This document shows positions 17,766-36,221 of a stretch of 64,000 nucleotides of DNA, piece after piece. The notes under the pieces are model-generated. The model ran no database searches, was not told the origin of the DNA, and worked only from the letters and a program-made list of their open reading frames with translations. The translations under genes were made by a program, and so were the position numbers. This DNA comes from Fimbriimonadaceae bacterium (lineage in GTDB: Bacteria; Armatimonadota; Fimbriimonadia; Fimbriimonadales; Fimbriimonadaceae). The DNA lies in assembly GCA_019638775.1 (NCBI GenBank), contig JAHBTD010000001.1:620001-684000 (forward strand). Direction: 5' to 3'. Each line of letters starts with the position of its first letter. The stretch's first letter is position 1.

Positions 17766-19205
17766 ATGAACAAATCCGAATTCACCACCGGCTTCGCGTG
17801 GAACTTCATGTTCAACGCGATCAACCGACTGGCGTTTCCGGTCATCGGCATCCTCATCGCCCGACATCTCGGCCCCGCCGAAATGGGCATCTTCGCACTC
17901 TACGCGTCCATTGTCACCGTCATCGACGTTTTTCGCGACGCCGGGCTTGGCTCAACCCTAATCGCCGACCGCGAACACAAGCTCGGCAGCGTCGCCAGCT
18001 ATTTCTGGACAAGCATCTCCATCAGCGCGATCCTCGCACTTGTCGTCTTCCTCCTGCGCGACAAAGCCGCTGTTTACTTCGGCTCCGACAGCTTGCGCAT
18101 GACCCTCATCTTCGGAAGCATCGGGCTGATGATCGGCGGCCTAACCATCATCCCCAACGCCATCCTCCAGCAGCAGGCCAGATTTCGAGACGCCGGGTTT
18201 GCCGAGCTTGTCGCCTCCATCATCGGCTATTCCGTCTGCATCATCATGATCTTCCAGGGCTATGGATTCGAGGCCCTTCTCACCCAATCGATCATCCGGG
18301 GCGCGCTCCTTCTTGCCTTTTTCTGGTACCTCGCCAAGCCCAAAATCTCCGGCGGTAAGCTGCAGGACTCCTGGTCGATTCTCGCCAAATCGACGCATCT
18401 CCTCGCCAACAACATCCAATACACGATCTACACAACCGTCGACAACACCTTCATTGGAAAGGTCTTTGGCGAAAAGGCGTTGGGACTCTACGGAACGATG
18501 TACAACATCTCCACCCGCCCGCTCGAACTCGTAAGTTGGCCCCTCAGCCGCACCCTGTTTGTGGCCTTCACCCGCACCCAAGACGACAAAGTACGGCTTG
18601 CATCTATCCTCTGCCGCTCCTACCGCGCCGTCGCATTCTCGATGGTCCCGCTGTACGCATTTCTCGCCATCTACAGCAAACCGTTCGTGATCTCGCTTTA
18701 CTCCACCAAGTTCGAAGATGCCGTCCCAATCCTCACTATGCTGGCGATCTATCTCGGCGTCCGCTCATTCGGCACCATCGGCGGCACAGCCTGCGTAGCC
18801 ATCCACCGCGCCAGCCTAAACACGCTCTGCTGGTTTTTGCCATACGTTGTCGCCATCACGGGCATTTGGCTGACGTGGAGTACCAGATCGCTCATCTCCG
18901 CAACGTTCTGGCTAACTCTCGGAGCGGTTGCTGGCTATGGAGCGCAAACGATCGTATCGTTGTTCGTCTTCCGCCCCACCGCAAAGGCCCTCGCAAGCGT
19001 TGGCTCAGCAATCGCATGCTCCGTTGGCGCGGTCATTCTGTCCGTCCCCATCCTCTGGCTGAACGCCCCCCTGCCCATCAAGCTTGTCTTGGGCGTCGCG
19101 TTCGTGGGCATCGTCCAAGTGATCCTAGTTGGCCTTCAAACGAAGAAAAACCCCTGGGCTTGCTTCTCCCTAAAAGGGATAAAAGGCGTATGGGCCGAGA
19201 TGTAG
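17766..19205 (+). CDS. Wzx-type polysaccharide flippase (MOP superfamily)
   Basis: A 479-residue polytopic protein, about 12-14 hydrophobic segments. The N-terminus NFMFNAINRLAFPVIGILIARHLGPAEMGIFA is the hallmark of the oligosaccharide flippase (PST) family. It would move undecaprenyl-PP-linked repeat units across the inner membrane for the polymerase encoded convergently next to it. GGAG about 12 bp before the ATG is the likely ribosome-binding site. Only one base separates its stop from that of the convergent polymerase gene. Confidence 0.88.
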   Translation: MNKSEFTTGFAWNFMFNAINRLAFPVIGILIARHLGPAEMGIFALYASIVTVIDVFRDAGLGSTLIADREHKLGSVASYFWTSISISAILALVVFLLRDKAAVYFGSDSLRMTLIFGSIGLMIGGLTIIPNAILQQQARFRDAGFAELVASIIGYSVCIIMIFQGYGFEALLTQSIIRGALLLAFFWYLAKPKISGGKLQDSWSILAKSTHLLANNIQYTIYTTVDNTFIGKVFGEKALGLYGTMYNISTRPLELVSWPLSRTLFVAFTRTQDDKVRLASILCRSYRAVAFSMVPLYAFLAIYSKPFVISLYSTKFEDAVPILTMLAIYLGVRSFGTIGGTACVAIHRASLNTLCWFLPYVVAITGIWLTWSTRSLISATFWLTLGAVAGYGAQTIVSLFVFRPTAKALASVGSAIACSVGAVILSVPILWLNAPLPIKLVLGVAFVGIVQVILVGLQTKKNPWACFSLKGIKGVWAEM

Positions 19206-19206
19206 C

Positions 19207-20577
19207 TTAGAACGACTGATGCCCAGCCAACAACGACTCGCCACGGTGCTGGTTGACCGCAATATGGACTCCCATAATGACGTTCGCTACAACCATCGAG
19301 AACGGGCTCGTTAGAATGTTTTCACTGGCGCAAAAAACCACCAGCGCACAGCCAACAACGATAGCCCCTATGGCTATGTCGTCACGTGGAAACTTCACGA
19401 TCAACGGCGTAAAGGGCAGCAACAGAATGATAAAAACAAAGACAAGCCCCCCAAACCCAAAGTAAGCAGGCATCTGATAATAGGCCGTGCCCGTCACGCC
19501 CTCAGCGTTGTAGTAGTTGTAGCTTAAAACGCCCTGACGGTTCAGACCCGCACCCGCTGGCGAAGCGCCAAAAACCGGGAACCTGCGGAACATCTCCGCC
19601 ATACGGTTGTTCGTGTCAATACGGTCATACCAACTCGAAATCGACATGTTCGCACGCGCGATCGACCGGCCCTCCAAAGGCTCCTTGTAGCGCTTGATGT
19701 CAAAGGCATACACCATCGCCAAAAACGCGATCATCGCCCCCAGGAAACACCCACCGATCACGCCACTGATCACCCACTTCCGACGAACGATGTAGAAAGC
19801 GCAAATACCGACGATGATCAGCGTCATCGCCAAAATTCCGCCCCGTGAATAGGTGAAGAAGAGCGACAGCGCCACCAAGCCCGAGTACCCGACAACCACC
19901 CACTTTTTCACCTTAAGCGAGAAAAGAAAGGCGACCGTCGCCAAACCCATCGACAAGATCTCGGCGTGACCGTTTGCGTGCGCACTAATCCCCCTGGCCT
20001 GATACTCGGCAGAGGGGCCAACAAGCTTGGCGTCGATCTTATCCCACTGATAAAAGCCCCGGAACCAATTCCTAAAGCCCGCCACGTTGCCCGCTTGCAG
20101 CAAACCCAGCATTGCAATAAACGCAATCGTCCCCACCAGCCAATAAATCAGCACTTTCATGCTGAAATGCTCGCGGTTATTGCACTCGATGATGACGATA
20201 TAGAAAAGCAACGGCGTCAAAAAGGTGCGCATCCAGTCGCCATAGTTGATGACTCCACTGGCACGGACCATGAACAGCTCGGCATAGATAAGCCCTACCC
20301 CGTAGAACGCCGCAAAGGCAATGAACGTGATCTCCCATAGCCCGATTCGATAACGCTTTCTGTGTGATGGCCTGTCTAACAACAGGAAGAACATGACCGC
20401 AATAATCGGAAGCTCGTTCAGCCGCACATAAGGCAGGGGGAACCGGTCAGCGAGCAAGTCGATAACCAGGTACCACCAGAACGAGAAGCCGATAAGATGC
20501 GCAAGCATCTTGCCGCGAGACAAGGCTGCTGGATTAAATCTTTCAGTGAAGCCTTGACGTGCGCTCGACGCTATCAT
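19207..20577 (-). CDS. O-antigen ligase/polymerase family (Wzy/WaaL-like) membrane protein
   Basis: A 456-residue protein with about 10-12 hydrophobic segments and a large extracytoplasmic loop (about residues 290-370: RFPVFGASPAGAGLNRQG, YYNAEGVTGTAYYQM) as in Wzy_C/WaaL-like proteins. It probably polymerises the repeat units flipped by Wzx, or ligates polymer to an acceptor; sequence alone does not separate the two. The start overlaps the Wzc-like stop (ATGA), making it the last gene of the exosortase-EpsI-Wzc-Wzy operon. Confidence 0.8.
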   Translation of the reverse strand: MIASSARQGFTERFNPAALSRGKMLAHLIGFSFWWYLVIDLLADRFPLPYVRLNELPIIAVMFFLLLDRPSHRKRYRIGLWEITFIAFAAFYGVGLIYAELFMVRASGVINYGDWMRTFLTPLLFYIVIIECNNREHFSMKVLIYWLVGTIAFIAMLGLLQAGNVAGFRNWFRGFYQWDKIDAKLVGPSAEYQARGISAHANGHAEILSMGLATVAFLFSLKVKKWVVVGYSGLVALSLFFTYSRGGILAMTLIIVGICAFYIVRRKWVISGVIGGCFLGAMIAFLAMVYAFDIKRYKEPLEGRSIARANMSISSWYDRIDTNNRMAEMFRRFPVFGASPAGAGLNRQGVLSYNYYNAEGVTGTAYYQMPAYFGFGGLVFVFIILLLPFTPLIVKFPRDDIAIGAIVVGCALVVFCASENILTSPFSMVVANVIMGVHIAVNQHRGESLLAGHQSF

Positions 20578-22571
20578 TGGGGCAATGCCTTACTCTCATC
20601 GATGACTTCGATTCGGTCCAGCGTCGTCGCATCGCTCGAAGCGAAGGTCAGAACAACCGTTACCTGCTTGCATCCTGCATCCTTCAACGCCTGCTGCACC
20701 GTCGCAAAGTCCACCGAACGAACACGATCCGCTCGCACGAGCACGATCGCTTCATCGATAACCTGCGAAAGAATCGCATAGTCGGCGCTTCTCAAGGTGT
20801 AATCCAGATCAAAGACCGTCACGTCCGCTTCGTGGCTCTTCACCGCCGCTGCGATGTCAAGCTCGGTGCCTTGAGCCTCAACGAGGTTCATCTCAACCGC
20901 ATTGAGAACACGCAGTCCATCGGTCAGTTCCGATACCTGTCCCGGCTCCGGCAACTGCTTCCCAAGACGCTTGATCGTCGAACGAGCGTCCGCCATCACG
21001 ATCAACGGCTTCAGACCTCGTCGCAAAACAGACTGGGCATAGTTCAACGCAGCCGTCGATGCGCCGCTATCGCGCACAATTCCAAAGACCGCCACACGAT
21101 AAGGCCGTGAATCCGACCGCAGACAGTTCAGCACCATTGTCTCGTAAGACTCGTGCGGTGCCTTTCCAAGACCCCGGAACGGAACTCCAAGTCTGGGAAC
21201 GGTTCGATAGGCAACGTGCGAAGACAAAGCGTTGAGCTGCGCCAGCGACCGGATCGGCATTCGAGTAGCCTCACGACGGGCACAGATCAAACCTGCGATC
21301 AACAGACCGACCAAACCGCCGATAACCGAATTCTGCAAAGGCTTCGGGCTAACAGGCTCTGGCAGCGCTGTCGCGGGGGTCACAACCGTCGTCGGTGTAA
21401 CACGACCAAGCTTAGAGAGCTCAAGCGTTCGATACTGCTCGTTAAACTGCAGGAACAGTCGCTCCAGCGATGAAACCTGACGCTGAATATCGTTCTGCGC
21501 AAGCGTCACCTCGGGATACTTGTCGATCACCAGTGACAGCTCGTCAAACTTCTGCGCCGCTTCGTCATAGCGTCGCTCAATCGCGGTGACCGCCGCCAAT
21601 GACTCGTTGATCGCGCCCTGCTGCGCCTGATAGTTCGGGTTCACGGTTGAGGTCGAAGACGAGTTCAGATTCTGCCGCATCGTCTTCAAGCCGTCCTCAA
21701 ACGCCTTGATCGTCGCATCCGCCTGCTTCACCAAATCGTGGTCCGGGTAATAGCGCTCAAGCAGTCGATCTCGCTCGGCTTTGGTCGTGGCAATCTTGTT
21801 CTCAAGATCGAGAATGTTGCCGTTCATGCTCGTCGTCTCACTCGCCCCAATCCGTGGCGGAATTTTCTTCAGCTCTTGCTGCAGAATCTCTAAGCGACCG
21901 CGAGCAGTGGCAAGCTCAATCGCAGCCATATCTCGCGTCTCCCGAGCGCGTGTGATAGAAGCATAATCCGCCGCAAACTGGCTGCCAGGGTCGGTAATTC
22001 CACTCTCCTGACGAATCTGCTTCATCTTCTGGTCAAGAGCATCCATCTGCGCTTTAAGACCAGCCATCGACTCTCGGATGGTTCCCAAAGCACGGTCCGC
22101 CAAAGTTCGGGCATTCACGCCGTTACGACGCTCGTACTCCGTATACATCGCCGCCGCAAAAGCGCGCGCCTTGGCTGGCGAAGACATCCGAACGCGCAAG
22201 CTAACGACGTCAGAACCTAGCTCAGCATCAACGAAGACGTTCTCGCGCATATTGATAGGCTGCAGCTCTTCCTGTTCGTCCGAAGGAATGTTCAAGTCTT
22301 GCGTAATCTTCTCAGAAGCCTCGCGCAAAACATCATAACCCGTGAGCTGCTGAACCTGAGTGGTAAGGCTACGCGGGCGGCTAAACTCGGTCAAGTCGAC
22401 AATCGACTGATCAGGCGCACTCATCGCCATCGCGGGCGAGAGCTGCTTCTGGTCGATCAGAATCTGAACGAACCCTTCGTATTTCTTTGGGGCGATAAAG
22501 GAGGCGCCAAGCGCTAAGCCTGCGCCGATCATCACACCCAGCACAACCTTCCATAAATAAGATCTGATCAT
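20574..22571 (-). CDS. Wzz/Wzc-type chain-length protein with degenerate BY-kinase domain
   Basis: 665 residues. A membrane segment near residues 8-28 is followed by a Wzz-type periplasmic region with long coiled-coil stretches (LADRALGTIRESMAGLKAQ onward) and a second membrane segment around 410-432. The C-terminal region (about 490-665) has the layout of a Wzc/CapB tyrosine kinase. The Walker A site, however, reads GIVRDSGAST with no GK[ST]; the A' motif is LIVMADARS, Walker B is TVFDLDYTL, and no Tyr-rich tail is present. ATG 22571 is preferred over GTG 22589 because GAGGA lies at normal spacing. Confidence 0.85.
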   Translation of the reverse strand: MIRSYLWKVVLGVMIGAGLALGASFIAPKKYEGFVQILIDQKQLSPAMAMSAPDQSIVDLTEFSRPRSLTTQVQQLTGYDVLREASEKITQDLNIPSDEQEELQPINMRENVFVDAELGSDVVSLRVRMSSPAKARAFAAAMYTEYERRNGVNARTLADRALGTIRESMAGLKAQMDALDQKMKQIRQESGITDPGSQFAADYASITRARETRDMAAIELATARGRLEILQQELKKIPPRIGASETTSMNGNILDLENKIATTKAERDRLLERYYPDHDLVKQADATIKAFEDGLKTMRQNLNSSSTSTVNPNYQAQQGAINESLAAVTAIERRYDEAAQKFDELSLVIDKYPEVTLAQNDIQRQVSSLERLFLQFNEQYRTLELSKLGRVTPTTVVTPATALPEPVSPKPLQNSVIGGLVGLLIAGLICARREATRMPIRSLAQLNALSSHVAYRTVPRLGVPFRGLGKAPHESYETMVLNCLRSDSRPYRVAVFGIVRDSGASTAALNYAQSVLRRGLKPLIVMADARSTIKRLGKQLPEPGQVSELTDGLRVLNAVEMNLVEAQGTELDIAAAVKSHEADVTVFDLDYTLRSADYAILSQVIDEAIVLVRADRVRSVDFATVQQALKDAGCKQVTVVLTFASSDATTLDRIEVIDESKALPQ

Positions 22572-22676
22572 CGATCCATCCTCGTACACGTAGTCTAACG
22601 GTGCCTATTGAACCTATAGACGCTTCACAATCATACCTTGGTGCGAGTTCGACGAACTCTCGACAAGGCTTCTGGT

Positions 22677-23336
22677 TTAAAGCTTTCCGTCGCTCGTTCG
22701 TTCGCTCTCAGCTAAATAGTCGGAAATAAATGCCTGAAGCTTCTCTTTTGTAACCGAGGGGGACACTCCGATGAACCTGTAAAACACGCCGTCGGAGTTG
22801 GGTTTAAACAACAATCGACGCTTGAGCATGTTAAAGGTCATGCCCTGTGGAGCCGCATAATAGTTGTCGGCGTCCTTGTAGAAAAAGATCGTCTGACTCG
22901 TTCGGCCGTCCTGATTGCTCATCGACGCAACCGTCGCCCGAATGTCGCCCTTGCTGGTCTTAATCGGCTCTTCGTTCAACGTCCCAAAAGTCCAACCCTG
23001 GGCTGTAAAGCACACCTTCGGGTCGTGGAAAGACTCCTTCTTGTTGCTCGAAATCACAACAACATCGATCACATCCTCGCCCGCTCGATACACCCGGCAA
23101 ACAATGCCGTACGGAACGAGCTCGTTGTACGTCGACTCAGGCATCTTATAGGTCTGTTCTGTGCCTCCATCGCTGTACACCATCGTGAACTTGCCAATCT
23201 GTTTCGGAAGGCTCGACTCCATCCAACTCTCCGTATGACCCGGAGTAGCCGCGGCCTTCGGAGCAAGCTGAATCGCCAAGCCAACGATAACAAAGCTCAC
23301 ACCTAGCCAAACTGCGCTTTTTCTTAGTTTTTCCAT
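22677..23336 (-). CDS. epsI: EpsI-family exosortase-associated protein
   Basis: 219 residues. One N-terminal membrane anchor/signal (AVWLGVSFVIVGLAIQLAP), then a periplasmic EpsI (DUF3485) domain with the conserved HDPKVCFTAQGWTF segment. EpsI proteins accompany exosortases in EPS-linked loci, where their exact chemistry is unresolved. ATG 23336 lies inside the exosortase 3' end (13-bp overlap), arguing for coupled translation; longer frames only retranslate the exosortase gene. Confidence 0.85.
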   Translation of the reverse strand: MEKLRKSAVWLGVSFVIVGLAIQLAPKAAATPGHTESWMESSLPKQIGKFTMVYSDGGTEQTYKMPESTYNELVPYGIVCRVYRAGEDVIDVVVISSNKKESFHDPKVCFTAQGWTFGTLNEEPIKTSKGDIRATVASMSNQDGRTSQTIFFYKDADNYYAAPQGMTFNMLKRRLLFKPNSDGVFYRFIGVSPSVTKEKLQAFISDYLAESERTSDGKL

Positions 23337-24421
23337 CCTAAACCTCTTGCAAGTTGGAACAGGATCAGGAAGCAAACGATCAGCGTGATATAGCCGCTGT
23401 AATCGTGGAACTGCATTCCCGCCTTCGATCCATAAGCGTTGCCGACAACGCCAATCAAGGAAATTCTCAAGCCGTTGATAAACACCGCCAACGGCAAAAT
23501 CATCGCGACCATCACCAGGTTCGCCCACCACTTCAATCGAGCGATCATGACAAAGAACGCGGTAAACGCCATGAGCGCCAAAACGAGTTTCAAGCCCGAA
23601 CACGGCACTGCGATGTCCAGCATGAAGTTATCGAGCCATACCGTCGTCGGTTCGTTAGGAACCTGGAAAGTATTCAGGCCAAACACCTTCAAAAGCTGAA
23701 TCGCCACCGAAGTTGAAGCGAGCTGCAGCGGGTTTGTATAGTTCGTGATAATCGAAGAAAGCAGCGGCAAACCAAACGCCAAATACAAAATAGGCGGCGA
23801 AAGCCACAATGCCCACCGAAAGCCCGCCAACATCCAAACGCTGCACACCAGCGTGAGCAGCAGCAACAGCGACAGCAAGCCGATAATCGTCAGCGAATTG
23901 GCAACCAAAGTGCCCGCCACAAGAGCAACCAAGAGCACCGCAGCCGGATAGAAAGGCTTCACCGGGATCGTCTTTAGCTTCGGCCACCATCGATAAACGA
24001 CGTAGCCCGAGATCAGCGGAACCAAAAAGCCGTGCGAATAGTAGCCGTCCTCACTGGTCCAAAGCCCATACAGCCGCCGAATGACGGTGAAGAACATCAC
24101 CCCAATGCCGAGCGCAAGCAAAACGCCAGGAACAAACGCGGGCGATTGGCTGATCTTCCGCGCCAGTTCGGCGTAGTCCATCTTCGCATCTTCATCCGCC
24201 GCGCCATCAGCTTCAAGCTTGAGTTCGCTCTCCGCTACGCGTTGAATCCCAACATCCCCGCCAAAGTTGACAAGATAGGTGTTGGCATCCTGCTCGGTCG
24301 GCAACTCCGTGATGGAGCCGACGCCAAACTGCTCATGCCGAGCCTTCGTGCCCACCACAACATTTGCCGACTTAACGGCCATCTCATCCGCGACTGTGTC
24401 CACGGCAGACTGCTCACCCAT
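23324..24421 (-). CDS. Exosortase with N-terminal UvrD-tail/Tudor-like domain
   Basis: 365 residues. The C-terminal 280 form a multi-pass exosortase with the catalytic triad Cys274 (VPCSGLK), Arg319 (NGLRIS) and His339 (FHDYSGY). Exosortases are transpeptidase-like enzymes that process PEP-CTERM-type sorting signals, often in EPS loci. Unusually, residues about 20-70 (VGTKARHEQFGVGSITEL to the SELKLE end) resemble the small Tudor-like domain at the C-terminus of UvrD/PcrA helicases. GGAGG 9 bp before ATG 24421 supports that start over the internal Met81. No PEP-CTERM substrate is encoded in the window. Confidence 0.88.
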   Translation of the reverse strand: MGEQSAVDTVADEMAVKSANVVVGTKARHEQFGVGSITELPTEQDANTYLVNFGGDVGIQRVAESELKLEADGAADEDAKMDYAELARKISQSPAFVPGVLLALGIGVMFFTVIRRLYGLWTSEDGYYSHGFLVPLISGYVVYRWWPKLKTIPVKPFYPAAVLLVALVAGTLVANSLTIIGLLSLLLLLTLVCSVWMLAGFRWALWLSPPILYLAFGLPLLSSIITNYTNPLQLASTSVAIQLLKVFGLNTFQVPNEPTTVWLDNFMLDIAVPCSGLKLVLALMAFTAFFVMIARLKWWANLVMVAMILPLAVFINGLRISLIGVVGNAYGSKAGMQFHDYSGYITLIVCFLILFQLARGLGWKN

Positions 24422-24573
24422 TGATCAGTGCCTCCATTCGTAAAACCATGTAAAGATCGGTAACTGCAATCATCATACCAATCGAACGATTGGCCCCACG
24501 CATCTTGACGCTGCCCGAACAATCCTCTACAACGCCTCACGCTGCAAACCCGTTCCCCATCCCGAACGTAAGA

Positions 24574-24632: not shown

Positions 24633-26717
24633 TCATTGGCCGCGTACGGTATAGATCGCTTGCCGATTCACTCGACTCGCCGTCACCATCTCTTGGTACG
24701 GTGTGTCCGTGATCGACAGGAAGCCCGTGTTGTAGTTCTCTCCGTCAAATCTGCCCGAAGCATGCTCGTCGTAGTATTGGAACCAGTGTGCGCCCACAAC
24801 CATCGGAGAGGCTGCTGCCTTCGCGATATAAGCCTTGAAAAGCTCGCCTCGGTCCGTCTGGTCCATCGCCGGGACGATTCCCCACCAGTTGCCATCGCTG
24901 CATGTACCGTAGTTAAACTCCGCCAACACCACCGGACGCTTAAATCCAGCAAACGAGAAGTCGGCAAGCTCGGATCGCTCGTAGTAGTTCACCGTGAAAG
25001 CGTCAAGGTAAGCGTTCGCCCCACTGATCGCCTCCGGCGTATAGAAGTTGTCCCGCGACCCAAGATACAGACCGGTGTAACCCAGCGCCTGAAGAGCCGC
25101 CCGAACCTTCGAGTAGTACGCTGCCGAATACTGCGTGATGAAAGCCGAGATGTCCGTCAGAGCCGAGCGTCGTGAGTACGGCATGTTCGGTACCGAGTTC
25201 GATGCCTGAAGCTGATTCCAAGACGCAAAGTTCGTTCCCCAAGCCGCATTGAAGCGAGAGATGGTTCGATACTTCGTCTGCAGAATCGCCATAAAGCGCT
25301 GCTTTGCTGGCTGTGACATCGGCGCATTGATCGCGCCCTCGGCGATCTGGTAGCGAGATTCAGCATCCATCGAGTTGCCGCGCCAGGATTGCTCGCCATC
25401 GACGGTGATGCCCAAAAGGTTGCTGCGATTCTTGTGCAGGTTCACCTTCGCCGCAAAATCGTTCTGCATCCAAGTTTGGAACGTCGTGTCGAAGGGATCG
25501 GGCAGCTTGCGCCAAGCGTAGAACCGCGTATCCAGCCTCGTGCCGAATCCATTGGTTTGTAGGTGCAAGATATACGGAGTCGCCGTCGTCTGCATCAGAC
25601 TGTCGTTCGACCAAGCCGAAATCGTATTGAAGCCCCACGAACGGATTCGAGCGTCCGAACGCGATACAAAAGTCGTCTTCCAAGAGGGGCCATACTTCGC
25701 CGCCAAATTCTGCGAGCGGAAGTTGAAGCCCGAAACAACCTGTCCAGACTTCAGTTGCATCTGCGAGTAGTGCTCCAAAGCCGAGCCGGACTGCGAAGGC
25801 AGAACGCTAAACATCGTCTCACGGCCCGCGATCGGTGTAGCTTCCGAGTAGTCAACCGTCGTGATTCCGTAGCTCCAGAACAGCTTGCCGTTGGGCTGAA
25901 CAAAGTACCACTTGCCCGAGGGAAGCTTCTCCACTCGCCATTTGCCCGTAGCCGAGAACGTCGGCAGGTTGCCCGGAACCGCCAGCGGATCGCCGCCAGG
26001 ATTGAGAGCCAAATCGGTATCCTCCGTTGACTTCTGCGTCAACAGATCGCCCGTGCCATAAACCTTGCCATTCCAATCCCCCTGCGCACGCTGCCCAAAT
26101 TCATCAAAGATGTTCGTGTACGTCTGCGAAACCTTAAAGAGCATCGCATCGGAAATCGTGACGTTCGCCGTCGTATTCTCAGCAAGATACAGGCTCCACG
26201 AGTAAATCTGAGTTCGCGAAACATCCTTGTCCGACCACAGGCGAATGTGAGGCGAGGTCAGCGGGCTCGGCAGACTGAGCATGTTGTGGGTCAAGTTCGG
26301 ACCCGCTTTCAGCTCCATAACCACCGTTTGGGTTTGACCAGGCGACAATTCAAAGCGATGACCTGCCTTAGCCGAGTTCACCGTAAAGTCAGCCGAGTTC
26401 GAGTACTCAAAGCGCATCCGTGCGGTGCTTACGCCATTGTTTTTCACCGTCACCGCGATGTGCGAGTACTGAGTCCAGTCCTGAGCCGCAGAAAAGAGTC
26501 GTCCATATCGCGCCCAAATGCCGGTCATCTGAACGTCGGCGTTCAGGTTGCCATCGCGAAGCACATGATTCACGGCTGCTCCCGCGCTGGAAACGGAACT
26601 GTTTGGTAGCCCAAGGGAAAATTGATCTGCCGACTGAGTGACGAGAGGACTGACGTCCATCGCGAATGCGCTCGTCACCAAGAAGGGCAGTAATAAGCAA
26701 AGAGTCTTTGCACGCAT
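24633..26717 (-). CDS. Secreted glycoside hydrolase, beta-agarase-like (clan GH-A)
   Basis: 694 residues beginning with a signal peptide (MRAKTLCLLLPFLVTSAFA). A beta-sandwich carbohydrate-binding-like region (about 20-230) precedes a TIM-barrel domain with GKWYFVQPNGKLFWSYGIT, RIRSWGFNTISAWS, ITVDGEQSWRG (possible acid/base Glu), VVLAEFNYG (possible nucleophile Glu) and HWFQYYDEHASGR. These phrases are typical of GH50/GH86-type agarases and relatives, but the true substrate may be the organism's own polysaccharide. Longer starts only add the region upstream of the signal peptide. A terminator follows. Confidence 0.8.
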   Translation of the reverse strand: MRAKTLCLLLPFLVTSAFAMDVSPLVTQSADQFSLGLPNSSVSSAGAAVNHVLRDGNLNADVQMTGIWARYGRLFSAAQDWTQYSHIAVTVKNNGVSTARMRFEYSNSADFTVNSAKAGHRFELSPGQTQTVVMELKAGPNLTHNMLSLPSPLTSPHIRLWSDKDVSRTQIYSWSLYLAENTTANVTISDAMLFKVSQTYTNIFDEFGQRAQGDWNGKVYGTGDLLTQKSTEDTDLALNPGGDPLAVPGNLPTFSATGKWRVEKLPSGKWYFVQPNGKLFWSYGITTVDYSEATPIAGRETMFSVLPSQSGSALEHYSQMQLKSGQVVSGFNFRSQNLAAKYGPSWKTTFVSRSDARIRSWGFNTISAWSNDSLMQTTATPYILHLQTNGFGTRLDTRFYAWRKLPDPFDTTFQTWMQNDFAAKVNLHKNRSNLLGITVDGEQSWRGNSMDAESRYQIAEGAINAPMSQPAKQRFMAILQTKYRTISRFNAAWGTNFASWNQLQASNSVPNMPYSRRSALTDISAFITQYSAAYYSKVRAALQALGYTGLYLGSRDNFYTPEAISGANAYLDAFTVNYYERSELADFSFAGFKRPVVLAEFNYGTCSDGNWWGIVPAMDQTDRGELFKAYIAKAAASPMVVGAHWFQYYDEHASGRFDGENYNTGFLSITDTPYQEMVTASRVNRQAIYTVRGQ

Positions 26718-26794
26718 GTTTGACCGATTCCACACCGGCAAAAACAGACCCCCAGTACAACTGCCTGTCTTCCCCCGAGCATTACCTGGGGAAC

Positions 26795-28060
26795 CTAATC
26801 TCCGCAATTTACGACAGAGTGAAGTACACCTTCAGTCCTATCGACAATTGCCGACATCGTAAACCGGCTTTCGATCACCCGCAACGCTTCGTCTGCCCGC
26901 CCAAGCGCTGCTGTGTAATCCTGCAAGGTCGCCAATATTGCATGCGTCAGGGCATCCACATCGTGTCGCGGATAGACCCACGCCGAAGACATGTGCGTCA
27001 CGACCTCCTGCGACGATCCGTCATCGCTCACGATCAATGGAGTCCCACATCCCAGTGTCTCAATGATCGTATTGGCGAAAGGCTCCCCACAAACCGATGC
27101 GCTGATAAAGCAATGCGCCCCCGTCACAATGTCAAGAAGCTCATCCCTCGTCCTGCGCCCCACAAACTTGACTCTGTCGGCAATTCCGCCTTCATCGGCG
27201 ATGCGCTGCAGCTTGTCCATGTAGGAGGCCTCCGAAGCATCCCGCATATCGGCGGCATCTGGCTCGCCCACCATCCATAACTCCCAATCAAACTCCGGAT
27301 GCGCCGCAAAGGTCTTGGCAAGAGCTTCGACGATGTTGTGATATCCCTTGTCGGGAATGATCCGACCCGCCGAAACAAAACGAAAAACCTCCGCCCGTTT
27401 GCGATCTGTGTCCTTTCGCAAAGGGAATTCGATCCCGCGCGGGATGACCTCCATCGTCTTCGTGCCCGCTCCAAACTTCTCAACAAAGCCCGACTCCTCG
27501 CAAAGCCCCATCAAAAAACGACTGACAAAGCACAAATGCCGAAAATCGCTCTTCTCCTCAAACCGAAGCAGCCTGCGCCGAAGCCTCATCAACTTCGACT
27601 CGTCCGCCGGAGGCAAAAACCGAGCCTGCAAGTAAGGCCCCCCCTGATGCCAAAACACCGGAATCCCGCTCTCAGAAAATCCAAGCGTCGTCCCCGGCCC
27701 AATCAGGCTCACGCCAAAGCAATAAACGACATCGAACGATTGAGCAGTCAAAACCGCCCGAACGGCCGCAATGTTGTCAAGAATCGTCTTTCGTTCTTGA
27801 AGCACCTTAAAGAGAATTCTTTTCTTATCGCCCGTATCCGCCGGAGTGACGATATCTATCGGCTTCAAAACTCGAAAAATCTTTGGCGTCCGCGGCGTCC
27901 ATTCAGGAATCTCCGCCCCCGTCTGAGCCGTGAAGACCGCCACCTCATGCCCTCGCAAAGCAAACTCTTGCGCAAGTTTCTTCGCATTCTCCTCCAAACC
28001 ACCCGCCGGGTCAGGCGGATAGAGCTGGGTGAGAATGGCAATCCTCAAGGGCTTGCTCAA
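26795..28060 (-). CDS. GT4-family glycosyltransferase
   Basis: A 421-residue GT-B enzyme: RIAILTQLYPPDPAGGLEENA, FVSAGRIIPDKGYHNIVEAL and SVCGEPFANTIIETLGCGTPL with the EX7E-type pair. The start is TTG 28060, overlapping the upstream stop (TTGA) as at 8297, with a G-rich Shine-Dalgarno (GGGGGG) before it. It follows and probably depends on translation of the neighbouring GT4 gene. Substrates unknown. Confidence 0.83.
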   Translation of the reverse strand: MSKPLRIAILTQLYPPDPAGGLEENAKKLAQEFALRGHEVAVFTAQTGAEIPEWTPRTPKIFRVLKPIDIVTPADTGDKKRILFKVLQERKTILDNIAAVRAVLTAQSFDVVYCFGVSLIGPGTTLGFSESGIPVFWHQGGPYLQARFLPPADESKLMRLRRRLLRFEEKSDFRHLCFVSRFLMGLCEESGFVEKFGAGTKTMEVIPRGIEFPLRKDTDRKRAEVFRFVSAGRIIPDKGYHNIVEALAKTFAAHPEFDWELWMVGEPDAADMRDASEASYMDKLQRIADEGGIADRVKFVGRRTRDELLDIVTGAHCFISASVCGEPFANTIIETLGCGTPLIVSDDGSSQEVVTHMSSAWVYPRHDVDALTHAILATLQDYTAALGRADEALRVIESRFTMSAIVDRTEGVLHSVVNCGD

Positions 28061-31013: not shown

Positions 31014-31059
31014 GAACTTGCGCTGTGTCGTCCAAACCCTCTGAGCCACAACGGCATGA

Positions 31060-31065
31060 TACACT
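31060..31065 (+). promoter_or_regulatory. Putative extended -10 (TGATACACT) just before the addB-like start
   Basis: TGA-TACACT is an extended -10 whose hexamer ends 10 bp before ATG 31076, so the transcript would have almost no leader. A short GAGG lies 3 bp before the ATG. Confidence 0.5.
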
Positions 31066-31075
31066 GTTGAGGCCC

Positions 31076-33940
31076 ATGAGCAGAGCCCAGGTGCGATGGC
31101 TAGCCCTGACGCCAACAGCGTCGAACCTTGGGGCAGCGCTGCGTGAGTGGGATGCCCCCCACGGGCGCGTCATTGCGCTGGACGGGCAATGGTTCCCACC
31201 AACACCCGAGAGAGAAAACGACGAGCGTCTTGGGCTTGCCGAACTCCTCGGCCTTATCCTCGCCGACGCCAAAGCAAGGGTCTTTCCCCTCGCCGACGAC
31301 GCACTCGTCCAAGCGCTCGTCGCCTCCGCATGTGAGGAGTTCTCCGACGACTCCCGTCTAGCCGCTTCAGCCCAATACCCAGGCTTCCACCGTCGCGCAG
31401 TCCGCGTCCTCACCGAACTCGAATCGGCCCGGCTAACCCCCGAGGAGATGAACAAATTTGCCGCACAACTCCCCCAGTATCTTGCCGACAAACTCTACGC
31501 CGTCGGGCAGTTGCAGCAAACCGTCGATGACAAGCTCCATGCGCTCGGCTTGGAAACCGTCGAGAAGCGGCTCTCCCGAGTGCTGTCCCTGAAATCCATT
31601 GGCGAGCAGCCAGACATTTGGCTTTGGGCAGGGAGCGATTACAAGCCCAGCCTCGCCGCACTGATCCGCAGGCTCGCCAATGTCGCCCCCTCAGTAACCG
31701 TTGTCCTTGAAGCCCTACCCGGCCGTAACCAACTTACAGCGGGAGCTCAGCGGTTCGCCTCAACCTTCGAGGTCGAGCCCGAATTCCGGGGAACCGTCAA
31801 TAGCCTGGCAAGCCACCTCTTTCAAAGCACAACGCCCGAGAAGCTCGACCTTCGCATCCAAATCGCCAGCGCCGCCGATCCGCTCGCCGAGACAGAATGG
31901 GCGGTCCGCATGGCGCTCGAAGAGCTCGCCGAGGACAAGCCCCCCAGCGCAATCGCCATCTATGCACGTCAACTGCGCGACTACCGCCCGCTCGTCGCCT
32001 CAGCCGCAAACCGGCTCAAGCTCCCCGTCGCCCTATCTCAGCAGTCTGCGTTGATCGAAACTGGCATCGCCGCCTATGTTCTCGAACTCCTCCGCGCACT
32101 CGAACACGGTGCATCGCCGCATCTCCTCCGAGTAGCGAAGTCCACGTACTCCGGGCTCACGGTTAGCGATCGCGAAGAGCTCGCCAAGCTCATCGAAGTC
32201 CCGCAGTGGGAGGAAGCTCCCCCCACCGAAACCAACGCGGGGCGTTGGCTCAAGTGGAGTCTCGAATTCGGCAAAGAGATCTATCCGCGTGATGCCCATC
32301 CCGTCGATGACTTGATCCGACGGCTGCTGGCAAGACTCGGCGATGAACAGATTGTCAGCCCCACCAAAAACCAGGAAGCCACCCGCGAACGCGACTCCGC
32401 GATGCTTGCTGCCGCCGCCGAATCCCTGAAGCGCGAACTCCAGATTCGGGCGCTCGACGGCGAAACGGGTCTGTTCGCCGCCAGCATGACCGGGCCGGAA
32501 TTCGTGCAGTTCATCGAGCGGTTATGGACAACTGCTGTCGTCCACGTCCAACCCTCCAACCCCGGAGTCCGCATCACCCAGGACGCCTCGTCGATAGGCG
32601 AATGCCAAACCCTCATCATTCTCGGAATGCTCGAAGGCATCTTCCCCAAACGCCGATCTGAAGACCCTATCCTCTCCGACTTCGAGCGCTCCCAGATCAA
32701 TGCCCTGCTCCCGGCAGAGCAGGGGCTCGACGACTCCCACGCCATCGCCCGCCGAGAGCGAGAAGACTTCCTCCGCCTTTGCGCCATCCCCACTCAGCGA
32801 GCGATCTTCCTCTACCCACAAACCGACGAGGAGAAGGACAACGTCCCCGCGTTCTATCTCGAAGAGGTCCGACGGGTAGCTGGACAGGCGCTCACCCAGA
32901 CCGACTTCCCAAGAAACCTCTTCACTCCTCCTGGCGAGGAGTGCATTGCCGTTGCTGACCAGATTCTCCAACAAGCCCTCCTCGGCGAGCGACAACCCCC
33001 CGCCCTACCCGCGCTAACGGAAGAAAAAGCCATCCAAATGGTGCTGGCCGAGCCTGACACCGCCTACACCCTCTCCGAGCTGAGGGAATCCATCGTTTGC
33101 TCCTTCCAGTTCGCCTTCGACCGACGGCTTCGGATCGCCAAGCCAACCGACGACGGGGACGCCCGCCTTGGACATCTCCCTCACGAAGCAAGACTGATGC
33201 TCACCCCAAATGAAGCGGCAGCCCGTGACGCCCTTTCGCTCGCCCTCGATCTCGAAATCCAAAAGCTCTCCAGCCGGATGACGTGGGAGGAGCTCCAGCT
33301 CGCCCTCGCCACTGGAAAGCGGATGATCCCCGAATGGATCGAGCGTGAGTTCCGAGCCAGAGAACTCTGGCCGCTGACTCCTGATTCCCTGCAAACCAAC
33401 GTAGTGTTTGGCGATCCCATGCTCCCCGATGTCCTTCCCATTCCTGGGCAAGCCGTGAAGCTCAGAGGCAACGTCAGCGGCATCGGCAAATTTGGCGACT
33501 ACCGGATCGCCCTGCGCTACGGAGCCAACCGTGGCCTCATCGTCGATAAGTTGGAGAAGCTCGAAGCCCCCTTCCGACTCGAACTTGGTCTCCTCTTACT
33601 CTCGATGACCGCAGGCGGGCACCCGTTCGTGGGGGCACAGATTGACGGGGCGTCTGGCGGGAGGGTGCTCTATCTGTGTCCGCGCCCGGTCGATGTCAAC
33701 ATCCCTTCCGATCTGAATGCCGGGCTCAGAGTCATCCCCATCGACAATCGCAAGGAGTTCTTCGAAGAAGTGAAGGAGCTGCTTGCCCGCTCGCTCGACG
33801 GCATGAATAGAGGCTCAGTGATGCCATGCGCCGGAGATCATTGCAAAGTCTGCGCCTTCGGCGAGCTCTGCCGAAGCTCCCAACTCTTTGGCGAACAGCT
33901 CGCACTTGCCGAGGAGGAGGTGGCCCTAGATGAGTCATAG
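31076..33940 (+). CDS. AddB-like subunit of a helicase-nuclease, nuclease core apparently degenerate
   Basis: 954 residues. It lacks a Walker A motif, as inactivated AddB-type helicase subunits often do. It keeps the four cysteines that in AddB hold an Fe-S cluster: Cys675 (SIVCSF) and Cys918, 923, 926, 932 offer the C...CxxC(x5)C pattern. The PD-(D/E)XK core is not intact. The expected G-x-I-D-R...DYK region reads GNVSGIGKFGDYRIALRYGA (about 795-815), and no HxxLE motif was found. It overlaps the AddA-like gene by 11 bp, so the two probably form a complex in double-strand-break processing. Confidence 0.78.
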   Translation: MSRAQVRWLALTPTASNLGAALREWDAPHGRVIALDGQWFPPTPERENDERLGLAELLGLILADAKARVFPLADDALVQALVASACEEFSDDSRLAASAQYPGFHRRAVRVLTELESARLTPEEMNKFAAQLPQYLADKLYAVGQLQQTVDDKLHALGLETVEKRLSRVLSLKSIGEQPDIWLWAGSDYKPSLAALIRRLANVAPSVTVVLEALPGRNQLTAGAQRFASTFEVEPEFRGTVNSLASHLFQSTTPEKLDLRIQIASAADPLAETEWAVRMALEELAEDKPPSAIAIYARQLRDYRPLVASAANRLKLPVALSQQSALIETGIAAYVLELLRALEHGASPHLLRVAKSTYSGLTVSDREELAKLIEVPQWEEAPPTETNAGRWLKWSLEFGKEIYPRDAHPVDDLIRRLLARLGDEQIVSPTKNQEATRERDSAMLAAAAESLKRELQIRALDGETGLFAASMTGPEFVQFIERLWTTAVVHVQPSNPGVRITQDASSIGECQTLIILGMLEGIFPKRRSEDPILSDFERSQINALLPAEQGLDDSHAIARREREDFLRLCAIPTQRAIFLYPQTDEEKDNVPAFYLEEVRRVAGQALTQTDFPRNLFTPPGEECIAVADQILQQALLGERQPPALPALTEEKAIQMVLAEPDTAYTLSELRESIVCSFQFAFDRRLRIAKPTDDGDARLGHLPHEARLMLTPNEAAARDALSLALDLEIQKLSSRMTWEELQLALATGKRMIPEWIEREFRARELWPLTPDSLQTNVVFGDPMLPDVLPIPGQAVKLRGNVSGIGKFGDYRIALRYGANRGLIVDKLEKLEAPFRLELGLLLLSMTAGGHPFVGAQIDGASGGRVLYLCPRPVDVNIPSDLNAGLRVIPIDNRKEFFEEVKELLARSLDGMNRGSVMPCAGDHCKVCAFGELCRSSQLFGEQLALAEEEVALDES

Positions 33941-36221
33941 CGAACTCTCACCCGAACAGCTTGGCGTTGTCGAAGCCTCAGAGAGCGCTTTCGTCGTGCG
34001 GGCTGCCGCCGGCGCGGGCAAGACTCGCGTCCTAGTCGCGAGATACCTGCGGCATGTCGTCGAAGATGGTTTCGATCCGGGCCAAATTCTCACCATCACG
34101 TTCACGCGCAAGGCCGCTGCCGAGATGAAGCGACGCATCGTAGACGCCCTTCGCCAATCCAACCTCCTCGACGCCGCCCAACTCGCCGAAACCGGACCGA
34201 TCCAAACCATTCACGGCTTCTGCGAACGACTGCTACGCGAATGCTCCGTCGATGCCGGGCTCGATCCCGATTTCGACATCCTCGACGAAACCGAATCCCA
34301 GCGGATCGTCCAGCAGTCGATCTGGGAAGCGATCAAACGGCACGGCGACAATCCCCTGAGCCTCCAACTGATTCAGTACCTCGCAGGCAAGCGGCGATAC
34401 GGCGAGTCTGCCCCCAACTCCCAGCTCGAAGGTGTGCTTCGCGAGGCTCTCCTGGCGTTGCGCGGTACAGGTTGGGGTGTGGCCCGGCTCGAAGAGCTCG
34501 GAGCATCCCCCGAAGCCCTTGAGCGTGCCCTACGCGAGCGTATGCTCGAAGACCTGCCCCCCGAGGTGCGTGAAGCGTACAGCCCCGACACCGACTTCGG
34601 CAATGCCCTCAAAGCCGCCCACAAAGCAGCAAAGGTGCGGATGCCCCAATATCTACGCGGGTTAGACGCCGACGGGCAGGACGAAACGGACAGGCTCTGT
34701 CTGGAGCACGTCTGCGGAATTCTCGTTATGACGGCCTGGGCTTGGCGGGCGCTTGAAGAGGAGATGGCTCGAAGGCAGGCGCTCGACTTCACGTCCTTAG
34801 AGACCAAAGCAGTAGCCCTCCTCGCCGAGGGCGGCCCCGTTGCCGAACGGGTGCGTCGGCAATATCGGGTGGTGATGGTGGATGAGGCGCAAGACCTTAG
34901 TCCGCTCCAGTACGCTCTGATTGGGGCGCTGGGAATCGAGACCGAAATGATGGTGGGCGATGCCCAGCAGTCGATATATAGCTTCCGGCAGGCCGATGTG
35001 CGCCTATTCTTGGAGAAGTCTGCTCGATCCTCGACAAAGCTGCTCTCCAAAAACTACCGTTCCGACCATGGCATTCTCGCCTTCGTCGACCATCTTTTCG
35101 GGCAGATTTGGCAGGCCGACTATCTGGCGATGAGCCCGGCGGTCGATTCCATCCTCGACGAGGAACCCCCCGATTTCTCCGGTGTGGAGTTTTGGGTCGA
35201 GCGCGTCAAGGATCACTCTCTCACCGCAAGATGGATCGCCGAGCTAATCAGCGAGGGGGCCGAACCCAAAGAGATCGCTGTTCTCGTCCAAGCCCACTCC
35301 TACGCCGCCGAACTGCTTCCCAAGCTGATCGACTCAGGCGTCCCCGCTCGCATCGCCGGGGGGTCAGAGATGTTCTACACACGCATGGAAGTCCGAGATT
35401 TGGCGAACGTGCTGTGCAGCCTCGCCGACCCCCAAGACAACTTTGCCCTCCTCGCGACCCTCCGCAGCCCGATTGTCGGATTATCACTCGACTCCATCGT
35501 GCTGCTCTCCCAAGAAACTCCCCTCGTAGATAAGTTGCATAGCTTTGAAGCTCAGTCGAGCGAGGATGCCGAAAGAATCGCCGAGTTCTTGGCGTGGTGG
35601 AAGCCCTTAACCGCCTACGCCGACCGTCTTGCCGCGTGGGAAGTTCTAAGCAAAGTCTTCGCCAACTCCCCATACCTCCCCAACCTCGCCAAACGCAGCA
35701 ACGCCTCCCAACTCCTTGCCAACGTCCGCAAACTTCTCCGACTTGCTGCCGCCCATCCCGAGCTCAACGCGGGCGATTACGCCAAACGTATTCGAGAGAT
35801 TCAGGAGATTCGGCATCGCGAAGGCGATGCCCCCGCGATCGACGAGGACGCAAACGCCGTGACGATCATGACGGTACACAAATCAAAAGGGCTCGAATTT
35901 CCCATCGTCGTCCTCCCAGACATGCACCGAGCAATGCGCCGCAACATGTCGGAGTTGGAGATCGATCGTGGCCTCGGAATGCTCACTTCTAAGTTCACGA
36001 AAAAGGCGTCTGTGTACCACCAGTGGCTCAGCGAGCGGCGCAAAGACCAAGAGCAAGAGGAGAAGCTAAGGGTGCTCTATGTGGCGATGACCCGCGCGAA
36101 AAAGAAACTCTGCGTGGTCTTACACCCCGACCTGCGCTCCACCAGTTACGGCGGCAAAGTTGCGGAGCTGCTTGGGTTCAGCGGAGAACCGCTGTCCGGG
36201 GCAAGGGTGAGAAAGGAGTAG
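33930..36221 (+). CDS. UvrD/AddA-like superfamily 1A helicase without a nuclease domain
   Basis: 763 residues with all SF1A motifs: Walker A AAAGAGKT (25-32), TITFTRKAAAEMK, IQTIHGFCERLL, DEAQD (VDEAQD at 317-322), DAQQSIYSFRQAD, LSKNYRS, TIMTVHKSKGLEFP and YVAMTRAKKKL. It stops shortly after motif VI, whereas AddA/RecB run several hundred residues further into a nuclease domain. GTGs and the coupled AddB-like gene suggest an AddAB-type pair. No C-terminal nuclease remnant is visible before the stop. Confidence 0.85.
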   Translation: MSHSELSPEQLGVVEASESAFVVRAAAGAGKTRVLVARYLRHVVEDGFDPGQILTITFTRKAAAEMKRRIVDALRQSNLLDAAQLAETGPIQTIHGFCERLLRECSVDAGLDPDFDILDETESQRIVQQSIWEAIKRHGDNPLSLQLIQYLAGKRRYGESAPNSQLEGVLREALLALRGTGWGVARLEELGASPEALERALRERMLEDLPPEVREAYSPDTDFGNALKAAHKAAKVRMPQYLRGLDADGQDETDRLCLEHVCGILVMTAWAWRALEEEMARRQALDFTSLETKAVALLAEGGPVAERVRRQYRVVMVDEAQDLSPLQYALIGALGIETEMMVGDAQQSIYSFRQADVRLFLEKSARSSTKLLSKNYRSDHGILAFVDHLFGQIWQADYLAMSPAVDSILDEEPPDFSGVEFWVERVKDHSLTARWIAELISEGAEPKEIAVLVQAHSYAAELLPKLIDSGVPARIAGGSEMFYTRMEVRDLANVLCSLADPQDNFALLATLRSPIVGLSLDSIVLLSQETPLVDKLHSFEAQSSEDAERIAEFLAWWKPLTAYADRLAAWEVLSKVFANSPYLPNLAKRSNASQLLANVRKLLRLAAAHPELNAGDYAKRIREIQEIRHREGDAPAIDEDANAVTIMTVHKSKGLEFPIVVLPDMHRAMRRNMSELEIDRGLGMLTSKFTKKASVYHQWLSERRKDQEQEEKLRVLYVAMTRAKKKLCVVLHPDLRSTSYGGKVAELLGFSGEPLSGARVRKE

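Follow-up and report, generated by a model that had tools for sequence, protein, structure and literature searches.

A UvrD/PcrA-type Tudor domain at the N-terminus of an EPS-locus exosortase from a Fimbriimonadaceae bacterium

In a Fimbriimonadaceae genome we identified a gene in which a Tudor domain of the type known from the helicases UvrD and PcrA precedes an otherwise canonical exosortase. The gene lies in a window of 64,000 nucleotides (the whole stretch of DNA that was analysed) and is encoded on the minus strand (23324..24421), with an ATG at 24421 and a stop codon ending at 23324, specifying a protein of 365 residues. This is made up of the Tudor domain (residues 23-70; 24212..24355), a charged linker, delineated by hydropathy, ahead of the first membrane helix (residues 71-95; 24137..24211) and the exosortase core (residues 104-359; 23345..24112), all on the minus strand. 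The reading frame and the active-site motifs are intact, the fusion is restricted to one genome of those searched, and as read from the assembled sequence we regard it as real. The architecture is new and both of its parts are known; it is not a new system. The explanation that we tentatively place first, at somewhat less than an even chance, is that the Tudor is a lineage-specific cytoplasmic docking domain, with another protein as its candidate partner. The probabilities shared out here among the explanations are matters of judgement.

The earlier note on this DNA had read a UvrD/PcrA Tudor pattern into residues about 20-70, and several lines of comparison bear this out. The Pfam model PF21196 (PcrA_UvrD_tudor) matched residues 23-62 (24236-24355, minus strand) in the whole protein with 25.8 bits against a gathering score of 23.9. 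Given that the isolated 90-residue N-terminus scored 22.8 bits, just under this cut-off, we added an independent control in the form of a UvrD-tail HMM, whose rows consisted only of the UvrD tails of relatives, UvrD of E. coli and PcrA of G. stearothermophilus (the Geobacillus row being slightly unlike the PDB entry). This HMM gave the fusion N-terminus 30.9 bits, and none of 20,000 shuffles with its composition preserved exceeded 11.8. A phmmer search of all PDB sequences drew in a single, weak match, the PcrA Tudor 5DMA (E 0.72). Furthermore, the domain aligns with the UvrD tails of the family over 48 residues without a gap, at 31-40% identity, with the stretch VGTKARHEQFGVGSI occupying residues 23-37 and SELKLE residues 65-70. 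Positions of the fold kept relative to the UvrD tails include G24, H29, F32, G33, G35, V51, F53 and G58, and three positions invariant in 32 UvrD tails, K31, K60 and V27, are respectively Q, Q and A in the fusion. At the level of sequence, these comparisons establish the homology of the N-terminus to the PcrA/UvrD Tudor. Of the CarD-like and DUF3553 folds that the earlier note had named for comparison, no profile appeared: neither the CarD/Mfd RNAP-interaction domain nor DUF3553 was among the Pfam matches of the fusion at E up to 10.

An AlphaFold model of residues 1-92, computed with an alignment of four UvrD tails, contains five strands at 26-69 with block-mean pLDDT values of 77-88. Its best PDB match in Foldseek is again 5DMA (TM 0.74 by target), the UvrD Tudors 6YI2 and 7EGT are also among the best, and the top eight further include 7EGS, likewise a UvrD Tudor, and 9DQS, all with E-values of 0.005 and above. 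Because the UvrD tails in its alignment bias the result, we take this five-strand model as supportive and nothing further. The full-length AlphaFold model, computed without UvrD rows, has pLDDT values of 25-39 over residues 1-80 and no Tudor in this region, and was set aside for its low confidence. The structural match for which the earlier note had asked is obtained in the model with UvrD rows and missing from the full-length model without them, so that the presumed folding of the domain is backed mainly by sequence homology.

The remainder of the protein is an exosortase with eight hydrophobic segments by hydropathy, recovered by PF09721 (154.2 bits against a cut-off of 25.7, E 5.5e-45) and TIGR02602 (119.7 against 105.55), and scoring below the cut-off of every named Xrt subfamily. 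All six residues described as invariant in exosortases (PMC1569441) are present, namely C274, G276, N316, R319, H339 and G343. Among these, Cys274, the putative nucleophile, lies in the Cys-Xaa-Gly motif (23600..23602), Arg319 in the Asn-Xaa-Xaa-Arg motif (23465..23467) and His339 in the His-Xaa-Xaa-Xaa-Gly motif (23405..23407), all on the minus strand. The end of the exosortase overlaps by 13 bases with a partner of the EpsI family (DUF3485; 22677..23336, minus strand), a pairing kept in 11 of 11 relative loci. Beyond it in this EPS locus are a Wzz-like chain-length protein with weak Pfam matches, whose orthologue adjoins the exosortase in genome G012 (20574..22589, minus strand), a Wzy-like O-antigen ligase/polymerase (19207..20577, minus strand), a Wzx-like polysaccharide flippase (17766..19205, plus strand) and glycosyltransferases. 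The host genome contains 43 PEP-CTERM matches over the cut-off. Directly upstream of the fusion is a glycoside hydrolase-like gene (24633..26807, minus strand) for which the relative loci that were compared offered no counterpart; this may point to a local rearrangement. Beside the EPS locus we also observed an AddB-like nuclease followed by a 763-aa UvrD-family helicase that lacks a Tudor (31025-36221, plus strand). A second exosortase of the host, likewise devoid of a Tudor, is found on a 10.9 kb contig (G000:C29:3101-3868, locus L002) in a frame of 535 aa that would have room for a C-terminal EpsI domain; three PEP-CTERM matches lie close by.

These features place the core close to the EpsH/XrtA exosortases with a separate EpsI, with which it shares the three motifs, the eight hydrophobic segments, the EPS locus and the PEP-CTERM proteins, and from which it differs in its extra N-terminal domain of ~50 residues and in falling below all named Xrt cut-offs. 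Exosortases have gained extra domains before, but the described fusions are to a C-terminal EpsI or to a CAAX-protease (PMC1569441), that is, to EpsI or membrane-protease partners, and no exosortase-Tudor fusion was found in the literature searched. The Tudor itself resembles the PcrA/UvrD C-terminal domain (PF21196; 5DMA, 6YI2, 7EGS, 7EGT) in its gapless 48 residues, in the histidine and aromatic residue of its binding face and, as predicted by the model made with UvrD rows, in a five-strand fold. However, theirs is basic and C-terminal on an SF1 helicase, whereas that of the fusion is acidic, N-terminal on a membrane enzyme and carries glutamine at two invariant lysines. A UvrD-type Tudor outside UvrD is also known from the Y-family polymerase DinX (DUF3553), where the key residues are reported to be PcrA-like (PMC6511836), though DinX is a DNA-repair protein and its Tudor is C-terminal.

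Under the docking explanation, one Fimbriimonadaceae lineage would have added a UvrD/PcrA-type Tudor to a canonical EPS-locus exosortase. The membrane core, together with EpsI, would carry out PEP-CTERM cleavage at the outer face of the inner membrane via Cys274, Arg319 and His339. The Tudor, which from the topology of exosortases is probably cytoplasmic, would act as a protein-docking module, attached ahead of helix 1 by a flexible, charged linker, and would thereby hold the enzyme to a partner in the cytoplasm or associated with the membrane. We know of no cytoplasmic regulator or anchor of exosortases. A soluble docking domain on such an enzyme would mean that its binding partner could reveal what the exosortase works next to, and a domain through which a helicase meets its partners would have been put to new use on a membrane protein, its RNA polymerase contacts partly removed. 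In favour of this explanation we count the two Pfam matches within one open frame, the margin over the shuffles, the gapless alignment with its kept fold positions and its replaced invariant residues, the negative charge described below, the model with 5DMA as its best match, the pairing with EpsI alongside the 43 PEP-CTERM matches, and the precedent of DinX. The host also has an intact UvrD with a Tudor of its own, which makes the Tudor of the fusion an extra copy. Against it weigh the empty search of the window with a relaxed helicase-interaction-motif pattern (see below), the dependence of the Tudor model on UvrD rows, the two RNAP-contact residues that are retained, and the presence of the fusion in one genome, which, while it holds, also limits the reach of the finding.

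The Tudor and the exosortase align together in the host only, that is, in 1 of 291 Armatimonadota genomes. When compared with 85 genomes of the family, the N-terminal domain mostly drew in long helicase-sized frames, which we took to be UvrD, and reached an exosortase solely in the host; across 101 genomes (its own and those of relatives) almost all other exosortase matches begin past residue 50, mostly near 88. The UvrD-tail HMM scored no higher than 1.1 bits on exosortase N-termini from 54 loci, which represent 44 distinct genes since some had been fetched twice, against 30.3 for the fusion. Whole-protein scans of IMG/VR and of the GTDB genomes yielded no closer fusion-bearing relative; the one scan that reached bacteria beyond the phylum was pattern-based and finds close relatives only. 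In the fetched loci, neither a small gene for a Tudor nor a remnant of UvrD preceded the relatives' exosortases, and the match to plasmid exosortases was confined to the core. Tudor-like matches in G038, in G050 and close to the G011 exosortase were dismissed as chance, as the UvrD-tail HMM did not recover them. The earlier note had looked to conservation of the fusion in relatives: none of the related exosortases that we examined has the Tudor, which is one half of what that note had named as counting against it, and this limits the generality of the fusion rather than the presence of the domain. Its remark that exosortases normally begin at the first membrane helix was inexact, as those of the relatives carry a variable tail of ~20-50 residues before it, short and without a common motif.

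This distribution also suits a close rival of docking, which we consider possible, at about a third of the total weight: the domain could be a near-neutral passenger, a copied Tudor stretch that became fused ahead of the exosortase gene and is tolerated as a cytoplasmic extension, folded or partly folded, that does nothing specific. The variable tails imply that the site tolerates change, and the residues of known binding function are partly lost (see below). On the other hand, the fold-critical glycines and aromatics remain in register, without gaps or stops, at 31-40% identity, which would be unexpected had neutral drift been long. As the UvrD tails of the family share a mean of 77% identity among themselves, the fusion Tudor must owe its divergence to an early split, to rapid evolution or to an origin elsewhere, alternatives between which 48 columns cannot decide. 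A search for a UvrD remnant 5' of the fusion matched only the Tudor itself. The passenger explanation further draws on the junction, given that the Pfam match ends at 62 and that a likeness to the exosortase of G022 suggests, weakly, an exosortase N-terminus just past it. The probable start of the latter is a GTG (Val) aligned with V62, and its tail reads VAEKELSLE against VAESELKLE here (p 0.00024 for a single tail, or about 0.01 once corrected for 50 tails). The stretches compared are the probable N-terminus in G022, VAEKELSLEMVGA (L213 about 834), and the end of the Tudor region, VAESELKLEADGA (window 24202-24238). If this likeness is real, and it is a weak lead, the junction may lie near residue 61 and the last strand may be exosortase-derived. 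Similarity of the tails had also hinted at a frameshifted Tudor in two genomes, G022 and G117, but none of the three frames upstream contains one.

Studies on PcrA have shown that RNAP binding is severely reduced when H681, W684, K712 or L714 is replaced by alanine (PMC5397179), and that the docking site of its Tudor in RpoB and UvrB is a hairpin with TGE at the tip (PMC8318588). These four residues matter for function; belonging to the domain family does not depend on them. The equivalents of H681 and W684 are kept in the fusion as H29 and F32, the latter position being also Phe in E. coli UvrD, and those of K712 and L714 are changed to Q60 and V62. K683, the second lysine invariant in the 32 UvrD tails, corresponds to Q31. 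Summed over the 48 positions, the fusion Tudor carries a net charge of -4; the host UvrD stands at +3, the family averages +3.4, and no UvrD tail falls below +1. The host RpoB carries ADPETGEVL, one position off the published helicase interaction motif, and hence a docking site exists in the host, though the fusion Tudor lacks the lysine face; a relaxed pattern of this motif found no match among those ORFs of the window that encode at least 100 aa. With the basic residues of the face replaced, the partner is probably neither RNA polymerase nor DNA. The assignment to the UvrD tail made in the earlier note is supported, and the RNAP or nucleic-acid binding attached to it is not. It is accordingly improbable that the domain tethers RNA polymerase, binding the helicase interaction motif of RpoB so as to couple transcription to membrane sorting: the retention of H29 and F32 speaks for such binding and the near-motif would provide the site, but alanine at either of the two changed positions strongly impairs RNAP binding by PcrA, K683 is likewise replaced, the charge is reversed, and the UvrD of the same cell would compete. 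That the Tudor docks RNAP or another helicase-motif partner and keeps polymerase, while it transcribes, next to the exosortase at the membrane is a long shot; if true, surface-protein synthesis and sorting would be coupled in space.

A further alternative, to which we give little credence, is an artefact, with translation starting at Met81 and leaving the domain untranslated, or with an assembly error at the join. It would account for the Tudor being in no related exosortase examined. However, a GGAGG ribosome-binding site (24431..24435, minus strand) stands 9 bases before the ATG, with an in-frame TGA (24427-24425) two codons 5' of that ATG, and Met81, the next start after the Tudor, has no clear ribosome-binding site in front. 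The frame is single and intact, and over residues 1-80 its codon usage is host-like (+0.12, against -0.05 and -0.11 in the other two frames). These observations uphold the earlier argument from the GGAGG that the domain is translated. Moreover, the gene sits in the middle of a 1.33 Mb contig, and its locus has the gene order Wzx-Wzy-Wzz-EpsI-exosortase in common with G012. The least likely explanation of all, a DNA- or RNA-binding module on a membrane enzyme, could appeal to UvrD of E. coli, whose Tudor uses a basic, aromatic face to bind DNA weakly (PMC7585439), but is opposed by the negative charge and the loss of both conserved lysines. UvrD-type Tudors are also encountered without a helicase: in G280, from another Armatimonadota family, one of ~69 aa (L080:1749-1958; PF21196 53 bits) is free-standing and follows immediately after a gene that looks sialidase-like by eye, and the same genome has a second Tudor match within a helicase-sized frame.
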